37,070 nt of DNA from Candidatus Methanophagales archaeon (lineage in GTDB: Archaea > Halobacteriota > Syntropharchaeia > Alkanophagales > Methanospirareceae): NCBI GenBank assembly GCA_029241965.1, contig JAPWVK010000091.1:1-37070 (forward strand), written 5' to 3'. Positions 4,902-35,196 of the stretch are shown here, one piece after another. Each line of letters opens with the position of its first letter. Positions within the stretch are counted from its first letter, which is position 1. The notes under the pieces were generated by a model that saw only the letters and a list, made by a program, of their open reading frames with translations, did not search any database and was not told the DNA's origin. The position numbers and the translations under genes were made by a program.

Positions 4902-4940
4902 CTTTTTGCATGTAAAAAACTTTACCAAAAAGTCCCTAAA

Positions 4941-5130
4941 GTCACTATACCCCGTACTTAAGTACAAGACCTGTACTTAAGCGCGAGTGCCAACGACTTA
5001 AACTATACTTTTATCACAGGATTATAAAAGCTTTTCGATTTTTTATACTTCTCTCCAAAAAGTTTGTTATAAAGCGTTATGTACCCGGTTTTGTGCGCTT
5101 TCTCCTTTTCTTCATCTATCACCGGTACCG
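4941..5130 (+). repeat. Dispersed ~190-nt repeat, copy A
   Basis: This segment aligns over its whole length with 34791-34990. Shared blocks are GTCACTATACCCC, the palindrome-containing ACTTAAGTACA, CGAGTGCC, TATAAAAGCTTTTCGATTTTTT, shortened here to TATAAAAGCTTTTCGATTTT, then AGTTTGTTATAAAGCG and CTCCTTTTCTTC. Both copies contain a TATA-like TATAAAAGC in the same place and lie upstream of a minus-strand gene (cobN here). No known family is recognised. Possibilities are a small RNA gene with its promoter, a transposon relic, or a remnant of a duplicated gene. Confidence 0.75.
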
Positions 5131-12574: not shown

Positions 12575-12607
12575 TTTAATTTGCTAAATATCTCTAATCA
12601 TTTGTAT

Positions 12608-12650
12608 TTGTTTAGCAAACCACAAGAATACACGTATATTCACGAGAAAC
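12608..12650 (+). repeat. Half copy of MITE-like repeat
   Basis: TTGTTTAGCAAACCACAAGA then ATACACGTATATTCACGAGA corresponds to the left end of the element at 9049 (TTGTTTAGCTAACCACAGAT, TTCCACGAGA). The other end is absent. Confidence 0.55.
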
Positions 12651-12728
12651 CTTTTCTTTGAACAGCTTCGCTGTTACATTGCTTTTGCACAAACCTTTCT
12701 TAAAAAGAAAGCTTTACCAAAGAAACAA

Positions 12729-12956
12729 ATGTACATAATAAAAGTTTATTGTGCTAAATGTCAAACGCTGCTGTACAAATACCAAAAAGAAGGTCTCGGA
12801 TTCCTGATCAAATGCTACAAAGACCGGATACAGGAAGATCACACAAATGGCGATTTAAAATGCCCGAAATGTGGTGAAAGTTTTGCCAGAGACGCTATGT
12901 ACCATGGAAAGCCAGCCAATAAAATTATAAGGGGTAAAGTTTACGTCAGGCGTTAA
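12729..12956 (+). CDS. Small zinc-ribbon protein
   Basis: The 75-residue protein carries two CxxC pairs, VYCAKC (Cys8, Cys11) and KCPKC (Cys45, Cys48), which would bind one zinc ion. A conserved-looking basic end reads GKPANKIIRGKVYVRR. I recognise it as a conserved archaeal small protein of unknown function. The zinc ribbon and basic character suggest nucleic-acid or protein binding. No ribosome site is seen; the ATG is probably near the transcript start. Its stop lies 21 nt before an inverted repeat that may be a terminator. Confidence 0.75.
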   Translation: MYIIKVYCAKCQTLLYKYQKEGLGFLIKCYKDRIQEDHTNGDLKCPKCGESFARDAMYHGKPANKIIRGKVYVRR

Positions 12957-13048: not shown

Positions 13049-13210
13049 TTACTTCTCCTCGTCCTTCACATCATAATCCACATCAACGTAATCGCCTTCT
13101 TTCTCTTCCGTTCCTGCTTCAGGTTTTGCTTCCTTCTGCTTTGCCGCTTCCTCTGCAGCCTGCTTCTGCGCCTCTTGATACACTACCGCAGATACTTCGT
13201 GCATTGCTTT
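13049..13210 (-). pseudogene. Second, truncated copy of the dnaK 3' end
   Basis: This segment aligns with the true dnaK end (16131-16295) with six substitutions and one 3-nt gap. It encodes the last 53 residues of DnaK ([10 protein letters not shown] ... DVKDEEK and TAA). All six substitutions are synonymous in the DnaK frame, and the gap removes one of two terminal Lys codons. Similarity stops abruptly at 13210. It has no start and is not expressed as a protein by itself. The pattern fits a dnaK end that diverged under selection in a functioning gene and was later separated from it by insertion of 13211-16130. Confidence 0.92.
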
Positions 13211-13252
13211 GTAAACGTAGTAATAATGCGAAGCAACTATTTATTCTCAGAT

Positions 13253-15862
13253 TTAAGAAATAATTTTAGTGTCTAAAAGAGGTTGAAAATCTTCTTTTAC
13301 CAATTTCTTCCATTTAGAAGCATCCATAACCATACGATACTCTTCGTTTTCCAATAAATCCTCTCCTTTAAGAACGCATAATGTAGGATTATTCAAGGTA
13401 TCTACAACCATATACACAAAATATTCACTTCTTTCTTCCATAAGTGTTTTTGATTCATTTACGGTAAGGGATAACGCAGGATCATTGCCACTTCTGCCTT
13501 TTACTTCTATGTATATCTCATCACTTTTGGATTTAGAGCGGATATCATAACCTGGATGTCCCTCCTCAGATTCAGTCAGTTCTCCTGCATCCCTCTTCTT
13601 CTTTTCTTTCTCAAAATATAGTGTGGTTAATATTCCAATTCTGTTTGAAATATTTTTCTTTTCTTCTGTATTGTTTATTATATCATCAACACCTAATTTC
13701 ATGAAAAAATTTCGCCACCCTACGATTTCTGCATCGTCTTGCATTTCAATAAATTCTGCACTTACAAATTCCATAGGAAAATCTAAGAACCCCTTTTCTA
13801 TAAGAGTTTCAAGTCTGTGGTTTGACTTATACACTTTTGGAAACACAATCTCAGCAGGCTTTAACCACTTTCCACTTTTTGTTTTAAGCGTTAGGAAACT
13901 GAGCGGTTCAATATCTATTTTGTAATCTTTCGACAAATATTTAATCAACTTAATTTTCTCAATCTTCTCGTTATCAGATAGCTTGTTCCATTTCTCTTCC
14001 GTTAATTCAAATATTTTTGAGGTTTTTAAAGCTTCTTCAATATCCTTTTCCGTTAATTCCTTAATACTTTCTTTCTCTGGTAGTGGATGAAGATATCTTT
14101 CTCCATTTAACCTTCTTCTAAAAGATTGGAAGTTTTCATCTTCTGCTATAGCAGGATGCACAATTTTAAAGTTGTGTCTTATATCTTTAGGTATATCGAG
14201 ATTTCTGGGGTTTATACAACATTCAGTTACCTTCGCAAGTTCATTTTTATCTGTTAATATGATGGGCGTAGAAAGATCATGCATTTCATTCCAGAAATCG
14301 TCATGGTCTTTGTTGTGAAAGTAAGCTTGCACTATATCACGAAAGTAACTATGATCATATTTTGCAAACATAGAATAGAGCTTCTTAAACCATTCAACAT
14401 CACCGGTTTTTGCCTTTTGTTTCATTAATTCTATTACTTCAGAAGTCCGAATAAAAATTTTAAGATTTGAATATGCCGCTATATTACGGTAACCTAACTT
14501 TTTTATAGAAGACTCCAACTTATAATCAGTCTTACAATCAGGGTGAATAACCCTCTTACCAGGATAGAGTGTTTGCAAATCGTTTTCCGTGAGTAATTTT
14601 CTAATTTCCGGTGTTACTGAAATTATTTCCTCTGCTCTTGCCGTTGAACCATCTTCCGCAATTAATACTGGATTATCTTTAAGATAATCCCGTAATGGTT
14701 TTTGAATATTTTGCTCAAATAATTCATGTCCTCCTTTACCTGGATATAAAACTTTTGTGAAGTTGAACTTCCATCTTTCATTTTTTAAAAATTCTGGAAT
14801 GCATTTAGCAATTATTAAGTTGAATATTTCCTTAGCCATCCATTTATTCCATAAAGGATCTCTTTTGATATCCGCACGACCGGGTGTTGTTAAAAAATCC
14901 GCTTGGAATGAAAAATTCAGCCCGCTTTCAATTTCTTTTAATGGTACAAAACTAAAGACACCTGTATGAGCAGTCCCCCTTTCTTCAGTTTTAAGGTAGT
15001 TTTCTTCATCTTCATATAATCTAAACGCTGCTAAAACTTCCCTTTTAGTTACATCTTGTCCTTTCCACCAATCTATAGTCGCCTGATCTTCTTTAACTTC
15101 ATTTGGAACACTACATTCAGAACGGAATATCAGCCATCTATCTTGTGTCTTCAGTTCCGCGTTTTCGTATTCTTCTACTGAGTAAATTTCGTAGTTTGTG
15201 CCCGGTATAGAAATATTTTCTGATTTTACTATTTTTCTCTTGATATTTCTTATTTTATCGTGTATTTGTATTTCATTAATAGTTCTAAGGAACAGTATTA
15301 CCCTATTATTAAAATCGGATACTTCTTCCTCTAATTTTCGGATTATTTTTTCATCCATTTCTTTTGCTTTAGGTATAACAAAAATAGTATTCCAATCCTC
15401 ATTGTGACTGTCTAAATGTTCATCTATCCAAACGGGCATTACTTGCCAAGGAGTATTCTCTGGATTTTTCCAATGATTTTTGTCGAATTTGAATTTATAA
15501 TCTCCTGAATATATCTGGGGACAATCAGATATAAGAAAAACCGATTTGAAACCAACCCCCAGATAACCAATGTTATACTCAGCTTTTTTCGATGATCGCC
15601 CAACCTTGCAGATGCTTTCTACATCTTCTTGGGAAAAGCATTCGCCATCGTTAAAAATTTTTATAATATCTTCATCTATCTCAACTTTTATAGGTTTACT
15701 GTTTTCATCGTCAGCATTTTGTATGAATTCCATTAAAAAATGTCCTCGACTTGGAAATGCATCCTTTAATCTGTCTATAGCACCTGCGAGAGAATCAAGA
15801 GCAATATCGCTACTGTTTTCATATTTTCCCTGTATCTCTTCAATATGCTCTTTTGGGTTCAT
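13253..15862 (-). CDS. Sacsin-type HATPase with C-terminal DUF3883 nuclease-like domain; candidate defence protein
   Basis: The N-terminal ~200 residues are a GHKL/Hsp90-like ATPase of the sacsin type: HFLMEFIQNADDENSKPI with the catalytic E and N, IFNDGECFS (N-box motif D-x-G) and GYLGVGFKSVFLISDCP (G2 lid). A long middle part (~200-690) has no domain I recognise. The C-terminus has the DUF3883 fold: GHPGYDIRS followed by EIYIEVKGRSG, a D...ExK pattern of PD-(D/E)xK nucleases. Proteins of this build occur in prokaryotic defence islands. The start is set by GAGGG at 15871-15875, 8 nt before ATG 15862; the frame itself extends to TTG 15877. The gene is clearly richer in A+T than dnaK, and it sits between two copies of the dnaK 3' end, a sign of transfer. 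Confidence 0.88.
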   Translation of the reverse strand: MNPKEHIEEIQGKYENSSDIALDSLAGAIDRLKDAFPSRGHFLMEFIQNADDENSKPIKVEIDEDIIKIFNDGECFSQEDVESICKVGRSSKKAEYNIGYLGVGFKSVFLISDCPQIYSGDYKFKFDKNHWKNPENTPWQVMPVWIDEHLDSHNEDWNTIFVIPKAKEMDEKIIRKLEEEVSDFNNRVILFLRTINEIQIHDKIRNIKRKIVKSENISIPGTNYEIYSVEEYENAELKTQDRWLIFRSECSVPNEVKEDQATIDWWKGQDVTKREVLAAFRLYEDEENYLKTEERGTAHTGVFSFVPLKEIESGLNFSFQADFLTTPGRADIKRDPLWNKWMAKEIFNLIIAKCIPEFLKNERWKFNFTKVLYPGKGGHELFEQNIQKPLRDYLKDNPVLIAEDGSTARAEEIISVTPEIRKLLTENDLQTLYPGKRVIHPDCKTDYKLESSIKKLGYRNIAAYSNLKIFIRTSEVIELMKQKAKTGDVEWFKKLYSMFAKYDHSYFRDIVQAYFHNKDHDDFWNEMHDLSTPIILTDKNELAKVTECCINPRNLDIPKDIRHNFKIVHPAIAEDENFQSFRRRLNGERYLHPLPEKESIKELTEKDIEEALKTSKIFELTEEKWNKLSDNEKIEKIKLIKYLSKDYKIDIEPLSFLTLKTKSGKWLKPAEIVFPKVYKSNHRLETLIEKGFLDFPMEFVSAEFIEMQDDAEIVGWRNFFMKLGVDDIINNTEEKKNISNRIGILTTLYFEKEKKKRDAGELTESEEGHPGYDIRSKSKSDEIYIEVKGRSGNDPALSLTVNESKTLMEERSEYFVYMVVDTLNNPTLCVLKGEDLLENEEYRMVMDASKWKKLVKEDFQPLLDTKIIS

Positions 15863-15940
15863 GTTCAATTCCCTCAAAGTAACAGATATCCTCTTTACAC
15901 AAATAATTTGGCTATATTACCCACTTGGACGCAATTTCAT

Positions 15941-16111
15941 TTATCTGATTGACATATGAACCGCTAATACTATTAGCGCTATCACTATTAATGCCAGCCG
16001 CAAGTCATTGATGGTGAAATCTATTTTTCTATTTACCGAACCATTGGGGCAGCATGTTTCACTAATACTTATTCCAAGTTTTGGTCTTGCTTGTTCTATC
16101 TCTTTACCCAT
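15941..16111 (-). CDS. 56-aa single-pass membrane protein directly behind dnaK
   Basis: A 57-codon frame begins with ATG 16111 behind a perfect Shine-Dalgarno AGGAGGTGA (16118-16126, spacing 6). The dnaK stop is 19 nt upstream, so it should be translated from the dnaK transcript. Residues 1-37 are polar with a Cys pair (SETCCPNG, Cys20-Cys21). Residues 38-52 form one membrane segment (LRLALIVIALIVLAV), followed by a short tail HMSIR, so it is tail-anchored-like. The sequence matches no family I know. Nothing like it follows the second dnaK end at 13049, so it belongs to the inserted segment with the DUF3883 gene. Confidence 0.7.
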   Translation of the reverse strand: MGKEIEQARPKLGISISETCCPNGSVNRKIDFTINDLRLALIVIALIVLAVHMSIR

Positions 16112-16117
16112 ATCTTC

Positions 16118-16126
16118 TCACCTCCT
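16118..16126 (-). promoter_or_regulatory. Strong Shine-Dalgarno site for the 56-aa gene
   Basis: AGGAGGTGA on the minus strand, 6 nt before the ATG. It is the strongest ribosome site noticed in the window, which supports the small gene as real. Confidence 0.75.
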
Positions 16127-16130
16127 TTTT

Positions 16131-18011
16131 TTACTTCTTCTCCTCGTCCTTCACGTCATAATCCACATCAACGTAATCGCCTTCTTTCTCTTCCGTTCCT
16201 GCTTCAGGTTTCGCTTCCTTTTGCTTTGCCGCTTCCTCTGCAGCCTGCTTCTGCGCCTCCTGATACACCACCGCAGATACTTCGTGCATTGCCTTCATCA
16301 ACTCGTCCGAGTCATTCTTTATCTTTGCCACGTCAGTACCTTTCAACGACTCCTTCAGCGTATCACATGCTTTCTCTACTTTCTCTCGTTGTTCAGTGCT
16401 TATCTTATCACCAAGCTCACTTACCGTCTTCTCCGAGGTGTACACAAGCGAATCCGCCTGATTCCGGAGCTCTATCTCTTCCTTACGTTTCTCATCTTCT
16501 TCTTTGAGCCTCTCCGCCTCTTTCACCATCCGGTCTATATCGTCTTTTGGCAGTTTAGTTGACGCAGTTATACTTATAGAAGCTTCCTTGCCAGTTCCTA
16601 AATCCTTTGCCGTGACGTTCAAAATACCATTCGCATCTATGTCAAACGTTACCTCAATTTGAGGAATACCACGTGGTGCTGGTGGAATACCGTCTAAATG
16701 GAACCTGCCAAGCGAGGTATTATCCATAGCCATCGGTCGCTCGCCCTGCGTGACATGTATCTCCACACTCGTTTGGTTATCAGCCGCAGTCGTGAATATC
16801 TGCGATTTCCGCGTGGGTATCGTGGTGTTCCGCTCTATCAATGACGTGGCAACGCTTCCTAACGTCTCTATGCTGAGCGTGAGGGGCGTAACGTCAAGCA
16901 GAACTATCTCGCCCTTTACTTGTCCTGTTAAGATACCTGCCTGTACCGCCGCACCTATTGCCACAGACTGCATGGGGTCCACGCCGCCTTCTGCCTTCTT
17001 ACCCAGTATCTTCTCAAACCGTTCTCTTACTATCGGCATTCTCGTTGGTCCGCCAATAAGTATTATCTTATCAATATCCGAGGCTGAGAGTTTCGCATCT
17101 CCTAACGCTTGTCTTATCGGTGGTCCCAACTTGCTCAGCGTAGGTTCTGCCAATTCTTCTAATTTCGCTCTCGTTAGCGTCTCTTCCAGATGCTTCGGCT
17201 CGCCGCCATCGGAAACTGCAATAAAAGGTAGATTTATCGTTGAGGATACGGACGATGAAAGTTCTATCTTCGCCTTCTCGGCTTCATCCCGTATTCGCTG
17301 CATCGCCGTGAGGTCTTTTTTCAAATCTATCCCTTCCTTAGCTTTAAATGAATTCACAAGCCAGTTTATCACCGCAGCATCCATATCCGTACCACCAAGA
17401 TGCGTATCTCCACTGGTGGAGAGCACCTCAAATACTCCTTCTCCTATGTCCATGATGGTAATGTCAAAAGTCCCACCACCGAAGTCAAGAACTGCAACTT
17501 TATATTCCTCTTCCTTTCCAAGCCCATACGCCATCGCAGCCGCTGTTGGCTCGTTTATTATCCGTTTAACTTCAAATCCTGCGATTTCTCCTGCATCCTT
17601 CGTTGCCTGTCGCTGATTATCATTAAAATAAGCAGGTACTGTGATAACGGCAGCATCTACCTTTTCACCCAAATACGCCTCGGCATCTGTCTTTATCTTT
17701 TGCAGTATCATCGAGGAGAGCTCCTGAGGTGAAAACTCCTTGTTTACCGTCTTCACGTAAGTCTTTTCAGAAGTACCCATCTTTCGTTTCATCTCTCTTA
17801 CTGTCCCTTCCGGATTGATCACCGCCTGCCGCTTCGCTGCAACGCCCACTAACCTCTGTCCATCCTTTGCGAATGCCACTACCGATGGAAACATCTTCCC
17901 ACCATATGCACTACCTTCTGCACTTGGTATTATCTTTGCATCTCCACTCTCATCCATAAAAGCAGCTTCTGAATTCGTAGTTCCAAGGTCAATGCCTATT
18001 AATCTCGCCAT
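16131..18011 (-). CDS. dnaK: Molecular chaperone DnaK (Hsp70)
   Basis: The 626-residue protein has the complete Hsp70 layout: phosphate-binding [12 protein letters not shown] (residues 7-18), second signature [20 protein letters not shown] (~172), third signature [15 protein letters not shown] (~310), substrate-binding domain with [15 protein letters not shown] (~370) and the helical lid. The C-terminus is Ala/Glu/Lys-rich and ends [10 protein letters not shown]. An AGGAG precedes ATG 18011. It folds nascent and stress-damaged proteins, normally with DnaJ and GrpE, neither of which lies in the window. DnaK is not universal in archaea and is thought to have come from bacteria. The thermosome gene lies 99 nt upstream on the same strand. 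The last ~165 nt are duplicated at 13049-13210. Confidence 0.97.
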
Positions 18012-33060: not shown

Positions 33061-33807
33061 CTATTTATCCGCTAAATCCAGATTGCCACTATTGAATTGA
33101 ACCAATTTCACCCAATTAATAACACCGCCATCACAAAATTCCTTTAGAAAATCCTCCGTAAACCTGTTTATAATCTCATCCTTCTTCCTAATAAAATTGT
33201 CATTATGTCTTTTGGCTTCATATCCTATTGGTTCAATAATATCAGTATAAAGTGATTCATTACCGCTCAAAAGATACCAAAAGTTTTGGCCTACAACTTT
33301 CATATAACTATGTATGTAGCTCGTTTTTGTTTTTCCATAGCAAATACCCAAAACCGGTTGAACATGTAAAGTGTGCTCTGATTGTTTTAGTACCGTTACT
33401 GCTTTATTAAAATCGTCTATTTGCTTCCTCTGTTGCGAACTATTTCCCCAATTTGGTCCCGACTTTACAGAAATCAAATAATGTACATCATTCTTATCAA
33501 ATTCGATATCTATCCCCGTAGCAGATGATTTTCGACCATCACACGTCGACGCGGAAATAAAGATTGCGAGCTCTTCTAAAAAATCGCCAAACTGTTTTTC
33601 TTCTGAAGATGACAAAAAAGCGTCAAGAATTTCAGTAATAAAAATAGATGCCAATGTGATGTTTTTCGCTTTAAATAAATAGGGGTTTTTCTTTTTTAAA
33701 ATCTTTTTTAAATCAATATCATTGAGGGTTTTTAATTTGTTATTGTGAAACTTCTCTATATTTTTGTTAACAAAGTTGTTTAACGTTTGAATGTCAAGTG
33801 AGTTCAT
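33061..33807 (-). CDS. Type II restriction endonuclease (PmeII-like)
   Basis: The 248-residue protein follows the methyltransferase gene without a spacer. A PD-(D/E)xK-like core is seen at GIDIEFDKNDVHYLISVKSG (Asp100, Lys115), followed by PNWGNSSQQRKQIDDF, a pattern I associate with PmeII-type enzymes. The acidic residue of the 'ExK' position is replaced by Ser in SVK, so another Glu must complete the site. An N-terminal helical region (KTLNDIDLKKILKKKNPYLF) is typical for the group. It should cut DNA lacking the partner's methylation; the recognition sequence is unknown. The gene is very A+T-rich, unlike the genes to its left, which fits recent transfer. Confidence 0.82.
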   Translation of the reverse strand: MNSLDIQTLNNFVNKNIEKFHNNKLKTLNDIDLKKILKKKNPYLFKAKNITLASIFITEILDAFLSSSEEKQFGDFLEELAIFISASTCDGRKSSATGIDIEFDKNDVHYLISVKSGPNWGNSSQQRKQIDDFNKAVTVLKQSEHTLHVQPVLGICYGKTKTSYIHSYMKVVGQNFWYLLSGNESLYTDIIEPIGYEAKRHNDNFIRKKDEIINRFTEDFLKEFCDGGVINWVKLVQFNSGNLDLADK

Positions 33808-34686
33808 TTATTTTGTCCTCTTTCGTTTTCCATTATTAATCTCTTTTTTTGCGAATTCACAATATTCTTTTTTAATATCTATCCCTACGTATCTTCTATG
33901 CATATTATTAGCTACTATTGCAGTTGTTCCTACTCCAACAAAAGGATCGAGCACTACATCCCCCACTTTAGTAAAGAGTTTTATGAACCATTCTGGTAAA
34001 GAAAAAGGAAAGGTGGCACTATGATTTCTATTATAACATTCAGTGGCTAAATAAAGAACATTTGTAGGGTATGCATTTTCCCTCCCTACCCACTTGGAGA
34101 CATTTTTCCCAAACCCACTGTTTGATTTCGATTCGTCTCGTATTTTATCGGTTTCACTCAAACTCTTTAGTCTAGTTTGTGCCCAATCCCCCATTGGCAC
34201 CATAACCGCTTCCTGATACATATTAAACCTTTTATCTTTGTTAAATTGTAGACATCTTTCCCACGCATCTCTAAATCTATTCGGCCACTTGCCAGGATAA
34301 CAATTTCTTTTGTGCCACACAAATTCTTCAGTCCATAGCCAACCTTGTTTTCTCATATTCAAAATAATTTCAATAACATACGTATGTCGTTCTCCATTTA
34401 CAGCTTTCTCTTTAATGTTTAAAATAAAGGTTCCCGTTGGTTTTAACACTCGCAAAAGATCTTTTGTTTTTGGAAGAAACCATTCCACATATTTGTCCGG
34501 GGATATGCCACCATAAGTTTTTTTTCTGCTATCCGCATAAGGCGGAGATGTTACAATCAAATCTATACTATTATCTGGGATTTTTTTTAATATTTCTTCA
34601 CAGTCTCCGTGAATTATACTATTTATTGGTAACTGTTTTTCTTTTTGTATCGAAAATACATCTAACGTAGGTTCTAGCTCTTCCAT
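33808..34686 (-). CDS. DNA (cytosine-N4 or adenine-N6) methyltransferase
   Basis: The 292-residue protein has the catalytic motif TSPPY (residues 46-50) near the N-terminus and the AdoMet-binding motif DPFVGVGTTAIVA (~247) at the C-terminus, the order of beta-class enzymes. HGDCEEILKKIPDNSIDLIV before the catalytic motif and RRYVGIDIKKEYCEFAKKEI at the end are typical. TSPPY is commonest in N4-cytosine enzymes but also occurs in N6-adenine ones. It protects host DNA from the restriction enzyme encoded immediately downstream. GGGGGTAGGT precedes the ATG. The A+T-rich composition matches the restriction gene. Confidence 0.92.
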   Translation of the reverse strand: MEELEPTLDVFSIQKEKQLPINSIIHGDCEEILKKIPDNSIDLIVTSPPYADSRKKTYGGISPDKYVEWFLPKTKDLLRVLKPTGTFILNIKEKAVNGERHTYVIEIILNMRKQGWLWTEEFVWHKRNCYPGKWPNRFRDAWERCLQFNKDKRFNMYQEAVMVPMGDWAQTRLKSLSETDKIRDESKSNSGFGKNVSKWVGRENAYPTNVLYLATECYNRNHSATFPFSLPEWFIKLFTKVGDVVLDPFVGVGTTAIVANNMHRRYVGIDIKKEYCEFAKKEINNGKRKRTK

Positions 34687-35196
34687 CTTTTCTTACCTAC
34701 CCCCTTGACTTTTTTAACTTCATTTATAAATAAAACACCAAGCGTAAATACTTTTTATTTTTTAATCGATATTTATAAAATCATCACGAAGTCACTATAC
34801 CCCCTACTTAAGTACAGGCCTGCCTTTAAGCACGAGTGCCTATGACCTAAACTATACGTTTGTCATAGGTATATAAAAGCTTTTCGATTTTTTAAATTTT
34901 CGATGCTTTCCACCAAAAGTTTTGTTATAAAGCGATGTGTACCAGGTTTTGTGCGTTTTTTCCTTTTCTTCAGCTATCACAACTACCGGCGTCTCTACAA
35001 ATATTTGACGGTTTATCACCCCATAATATACCTATTTACGGCTTCTATTCTCTCTTCTTCCTCAGCATTCATAACGCATCACAAAGAATGCGTTAAATTA
35101 TTTTGTCATCAAAAAAACTGAACGATGTATTGACCCTTTCCAGATATTGTTTATGATTTGGGGCTCAGGATTTAGGAGTTCCCACTCTTCATTCCC
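34687..35196. other. 510-nt intergenic region with repeat copy B
   Basis: The region contains the second copy of the dispersed repeat (34791-34990) and, to its right, a hairpin AACGCAT/ATGCGTT with 8-nt loop (35073-35094). A plus-strand frame at 34903-35121 begins inside the repeat (see findings); it lacks a ribosome site. No RNA gene was recognised. Confidence 0.5.
34791..34990 (+). repeat. Dispersed ~190-nt repeat, copy B
   Basis: Partner of 4941-5130, same orientation. Like copy A it contains a TATA-like TATATAAAAGC followed by TTTTCGATTTTTT, and it lies about 100 nt upstream of a minus-strand gene (the methyltransferase). Differences include a 1-nt shift in the left half and a 9-nt insertion in the right half. 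Confidence 0.75.

Follow-up and report, generated by a model that had tools for sequence, protein, structure and literature searches.

The gene at positions 13253-15862 (minus strand) of a 37,070-nucleotide stretch of DNA, referred to here as the window, encodes a compact protein of 869 amino acids in which a sacsin-type ATPase is joined to a C-terminal NOV_C nuclease domain, and it lies within a small unit that was inserted by a single crossover at the 3' end of dnaK. The reading that we favour, at a probability of roughly 60%, is that of a single-chain, ATP-gated nuclease that would act against viruses or plasmids by direct restriction and that arrived on a circular unit of 3,085 bp. The host was taken as an ANME-1 archaeon because the McrA encoded by its genome fitted PDB entry 3sqg, which we take to be the ANME-1 enzyme, far best (1255 bits; next best entry: 651 bits).

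Architecture of the protein: The reading frame starts at an ATG with GAGGGA just ahead of it; mechanical ORF calling had placed the start at an upstream TTG (15877), giving a reading of 874 amino acids. At the N-terminus, Pfam assigned the SACS family (PF25794, 4e-17, 63.3 bits against a gathering score of 32.8), and the sacsin-type ATP-binding domain of NCBIfam (NF047352) matched the protein at 3.9e-21. At the C-terminus, NOV_C (PF13020, DUF3883) was recognised (2e-12, 47.5 bits against a cut-off of 22.1), which has been described as a restriction-endonuclease domain (PMC3710099). The ORF list, Pfam and NCBIfam bore out the reading frame, the motifs and the coordinates given in an earlier note on this DNA. 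The SACS/GHKL ATP-binding domain (15461-15763, minus strand; residues ~34-134), as delimited from Pfam, conservation, PDB and Foldseek, carries its key residues at E45, N49, D52, N71-D72-G73, G99-G104, K106 and S107, and sacsin SR1 in the PDB was matched by the N-terminal domain at 8.4e-13. The Pfam part of the NOV_C/DUF3883 nuclease domain (13379-13609, minus strand; residues ~752-828) contains D773, E786 and K788, with E751 in a helix next to it.

To collect relatives, 84,980 species genomes were scanned by profile with an alignment as the query; a single-protein query in the same kind of contig scan returned no relatives. Eleven proteins were related end to end (33-47% identity), from ten to eleven independent loci because two contigs carry the same sequence, and many more shared mainly the ATPase. 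The compact relatives, ~810-874 amino acids long, align with the window protein over its whole length; in genome G297 the relative is interrupted by numerous stop codons, and G283 retains a remnant only. Residues E45, N49, G99, G102, G104, K106 and S107 were invariant in the 13 aligned sequences, and the NDG and GYLGVGFKS motifs were also conserved, so that GHKL motifs I-III are all represented. The D...ExK core (D773/E786/K788) was kept in all 12 aligned sequences that contain the NOV_C region; the active site, the degradation of which across the family had been named in the earlier note as one of the findings that would refute a defence effector, is therefore intact. The canonical helix-A glutamate of many NOV_C domains (GE) is replaced by T-T in the window protein. 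Most of the compact clade is likewise devoid of this GE yet possesses E751 six to seven residues further on, which may substitute for the missing residue. The helix-A glutamate is not essential in all PD-(D/E)xK enzymes.

Structure models: A full-protein AlphaFold2 model was built on 13 relatives (mean pLDDT 83, pTM 0.62) and submitted to Foldseek, by which it was matched to Hsp90 chains comprising the N-terminal and middle domains and to sacsin SR1. About 540 columns were aligned to the Hsp90 chains at a low overall TM, which signifies a likeness at the level of the fold and no true fit. On the strength of these AlphaFold2 and Foldseek matches, the ~490 middle residues that had previously been left unassigned (middle region: 13766-15265, minus strand; residues ~200-699) were modelled as two successive parts, the first Hsp90-middle-like and the second helical. 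The C-terminal 170 residues, modelled apart (pLDDT 87, pTM 0.80), gave RecU and the Holliday-junction resolvase Hjc of A. fulgidus as top matches, with a target TM of up to 0.68, and the NOV_C domain is accordingly predicted to have an Hjc/RecU-like PD-(D/E)xK fold; a search by sequence for a structurally solved NOV_C relative yielded no credible match. The proposed union of a GHKL ATPase with a PD-(D/E)xK-like nuclease is backed by Pfam, conservation, similarity to TmtA in PADLOC and the modelled resolvase-like fold, and, as far as architecture goes, the putative nuclease effector has good support.

Comparison with known systems: The PADLOC model for TmtA, the Tiamat protein, matched at 4.8e-88 from residues 6-761 (874-amino-acid reading) to positions 1-705 of a 1302-long profile, and eight TmtA profiles matched the protein. 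The sacsin-type start and the collinear middle are shared with Tiamat, and at least one long TmtA-like relative (L086) also ends in NOV_C. In contrast, the TmtA profiles are 1063-1782 positions long against ~810-874 amino acids in the compact proteins, the second half of the profile has no counterpart here, the long relatives scored 445-719 bits with the same profile and the compact ones ~280-350, and the compact clade branches apart from the long relatives (support 98). Because coverage of the whole profile and typical length are both wanting, the protein was classed as a compact variant that lies near the TmtA (Tiamat) set, and not as a member of Tiamat, the mechanism of which was listed as unknown in 2023 (PMC10482375). 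VcSduA, a protein of the Shedu family from V. cholerae, likewise consists of an N-terminal GHKL ATPase, a middle region and a C-terminal PD-(D/E)xK nuclease (PMC12137116). The nuclease of VcSduA is DUF4263, the Shedu domain, whereas that of the window protein is NOV_C/DUF3883; neither a DUF4263 match (Pfam) nor an SduA match (PADLOC) was found in the latter, and it was not assigned to Shedu. In VcSduA, mutation of the ATPase or of the nuclease abolishes the anti-phage activity, the middle is clamp-like, and protection is seen at all multiplicities with the infected cells remaining viable (PMC12137116).

By analogy with VcSduA, the N-terminal sacsin/Hsp90-type ATPase and the Hsp90-middle-like region would together form a switch, probably a dimeric clamp. 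Once ATP is bound, the clamp would shut around incoming DNA or a viral trigger and permit cleavage, and the switch would release or position the C-terminal NOV_C PD-(D/E)xK nuclease, by which the invading DNA would be cut. The protein is likely to serve in defence, and its role would be antiviral (or anti-plasmid) by VcSduA-like direct restriction.

Phylogeny and distribution: When 43 sequences were placed in a maximum-likelihood tree, the 12 rows of the compact set formed one side of a branch with an SH-aLRT value of 98. Its archaea belong to ANME-1, another family of the same phylum, Thermoplasmatota, Woesearchaeota and Halobacteria, and they are interleaved with bacteria from Clostridia, Planctomycetes, Ignavibacteria, Bacteroidetes and Bacillota; this interleaving points to movement of compact ATPase-nuclease genes between the domains. 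Plasmid proteins of haloarchaea and bacteria annotated as 'DUF3883 domain-containing' have the same two domains; that of a Halosimplex aquaticum plasmid (L070) is 37% identical over 96% of the length, and such proteins differ in having another small upstream gene and in residing on a plasmid and not in a dnaK insertion. No close viral or phage relatives were found, just distant, mostly N-terminal matches, and the phage collection contained almost none.

The C-termini in the wider family vary, with NOV_C, a sub-threshold HNH_2 match (0.0029), the GreA/GreB C-terminal domain and CxxC-rich ends being encountered, the pattern that a constant switch with interchangeable effectors would be expected to give. 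Four sacsin-type ATPases of ~1040 amino acids (L113, L114, L142 and L173) end in CxxC...CPxC, HNH-like by eye, and not in NOV_C; Pfam gave no match at their C-termini.

Gene neighbourhoods: Inspection of the neighbourhoods of homologues for phage-defence genes, recommended in the earlier note, gave a divided result. A TIR-domain gene, ThsB-like, lies ~100 bp downstream of the compact homologue in a near-identical pair (L095:2673-3134 and L096:12549-13010), CARF-RelE adjoins the homologue in L100, DUF1156/DUF499 Hma-like genes adjoin sister-group relatives on haloarchaeal plasmids, and QatABCD adjoins a distant relative in Sulfuricurvum. Several of the closest relatives, however, stand alone: in L101, in L104 and, within contig reach, in G322 the homologue was on its own among core genes. 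The homologues of L099 and L103 have a common site between metabolic genes, and close relatives otherwise occupy different places in different genomes, mostly at unrelated loci. Because close relatives are often alone among core genes, and defence genes are few beside the near relatives, guilt by association is weak, and the evidence from defence neighbours was rated as no more than suggestive.

The TIR gene beside L095/L096, and the attachment of differing C-terminal modules to one ATPase core as in sensor-effector systems, would also suit abortive infection, in which the ATPase switch would free the nuclease upon infection, host nucleic acids would be attacked and growth would stop. We regard this as a possible but rather unlikely explanation: the protein carries no fused membrane or toxin module, and VcSduA, the tested system closest to it in design, gives protection at every multiplicity while the cells live (PMC12137116).

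Elsewhere in the window, a type II restriction pair of ~33-35% G+C, consisting of an EcoO109I-type endonuclease (PF14511, 1.5e-74) and an N6/N4 methylase, was located at 33061-34686 (minus strand). Between the same flanks, genome G225 carries ~6.4 kb with an apparent type III restriction system (L216; by eye), and the site looks like a variable defence site.

Insertion behind dnaK: The G+C content amounts to ~33% over the ATPase-nuclease stretch and ~45% in its surroundings, and there are two copies of the dnaK 3' end, which form a 159-bp direct repeat with 96% identity. The copy now used by dnaK (16137-16295, minus strand) has an element-borne terminal part that adds one lysine to DnaK and leaves the protein otherwise unchanged; the other copy (13052-13210, minus strand) is the original, displaced tail and carries the empty-site alleles of G225 up to 13175. 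The empty site was found in the same-genus genomes G225 and G269, in which dnaK is followed directly by a 75-amino-acid zinc-ribbon ORF, the counterpart of which lies to the left of the insertion in the window. G225 was taken as the native state for the polymorphisms of the repeat: at differences up to 13175 the orphan copy was native, and for the rest of the repeat, starting at 13184, the intact copy was. All informative sites resolved consistently (4/4 left of the block; 2/2, together with the flank, right of it), and a single exchange within the 8-bp block 13176-13183 (GTGTATCA in dnaK sense; twin: 16261-16268) accounts for all of them. The inserted unit thus extends over 13184-16268 (3085 bp); it contains the ATPase-nuclease gene and an ORF of 56 amino acids only, and no recombinase of its own was found within it.

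A single exchange implies that the incoming DNA was a closed 3,085-bp unit with its own dnaK tail; this circle would have entered the dnaK 3' end by one crossover, by which the tail was replaced and restored. Direct repeats, a restored target 3' end, an empty site and a single crossover, all observed here, are features of a site-specific integrative element. The insertion may have been driven either by a recombinase in trans or by homologous recombination, and the unit may derive from a larger ancestor. The mobile-looking borders described in the earlier note accordingly correspond to the dnaK-tail repeat, and acquisition by horizontal transfer, suggested there from the A+T-rich composition, is supported by the G+C contrast, the insertion with its empty site and the domain-crossing clade.

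The dnaK tail was also considered as a recurrent hotspot for insertion and was rejected, no second copy being present in 20 other genomes of the family and in G225, and such flanking repeats being missing at 14 homologues, of which L098 showed repeats in inverted order only. The dnaK-tail attachment sequence was not found in viral contigs. Two dispersed repeats occur outside the inserted unit: a short one at 12604-12729, present in 42 of 51 family genomes and often as partial copies of ~50 bp, and one of ~200 bp at 34789-34990 and 4939-5130, with dozens of copies in same-genus genomes.

The location directly behind dnaK and thermosome genes, together with the sacsin/Hsp90-type ATPase, might suggest protein quality control, with a sacsin-like chaperone in the dnaK operon acting as a partner of Hsp70 as animal sacsin does. 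With animal sacsin SR1 and Hsp90, however, the protein shares the ATP-binding fold but not the remainder: those proteins lack a nuclease, whereas the window protein has a fused nuclease domain with conserved catalytic residues, and Pfam found neither a J domain nor a HEPN domain in it. As the insertion at dnaK is peculiar to this genome, the other relatives occupy unrelated sites and the distribution across the domains is patchy, a chaperone function is considered highly improbable. Carriage by a small integrated unit, as well as the relatives on haloarchaeal plasmids, would accord with a stability or exclusion gene that guards the element against rival elements and not the host against viruses. 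Such a function is judged improbable, since the majority of close relatives lie on chromosomes without visible element genes and the phage collection is almost free of relatives.

The earlier note had envisaged a membrane protein as partner in a two-gene system, and a hydrophobic candidate does exist: the 56-amino-acid ORF (15941-16111, minus strand) inside the inserted unit has one C-terminal hydrophobic segment and a good Shine-Dalgarno sequence (GGAGGTGA) ahead of its ATG. Apart from one marginal match, however, no relatives were recognisable in 295 genomes of the phylum, and relatives of the ATPase-nuclease have differing small neighbour genes or none. The two-gene system was therefore rejected for want of a conserved partner. 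A more elaborate proposal, which we consider quite unlikely, is that of a minimal, recombinase-less 3.1-kb ANME-1 defence cassette that would move as a circle between dnaK genes and restore dnaK, with a tail-anchored 56-amino-acid peptide and the nuclease placed under dnaK (stress) transcription and made upon infection stress. A different small gene, encoding 103 amino acids, lies immediately upstream of a compact homologue or homologue remnant in L097 (9686-9997) and L091 (6392-6703); the two copies are 82% identical, and that of L097 had no match in Pfam or PADLOC. It is possibly a partner in some lineages.

Although only about half as long as the profiled Tiamat proteins, those of the compact clade retain the sacsin-type ATPase, the conserved middle and the nuclease; if functional, the compact protein would offer a tractable minimal model of how Hsp90-like ATPases gate immune nucleases. 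The single-crossover insertion behind dnaK also illustrates how transfer among uncultured methane-oxidising archaea can involve cargo units of very small size.
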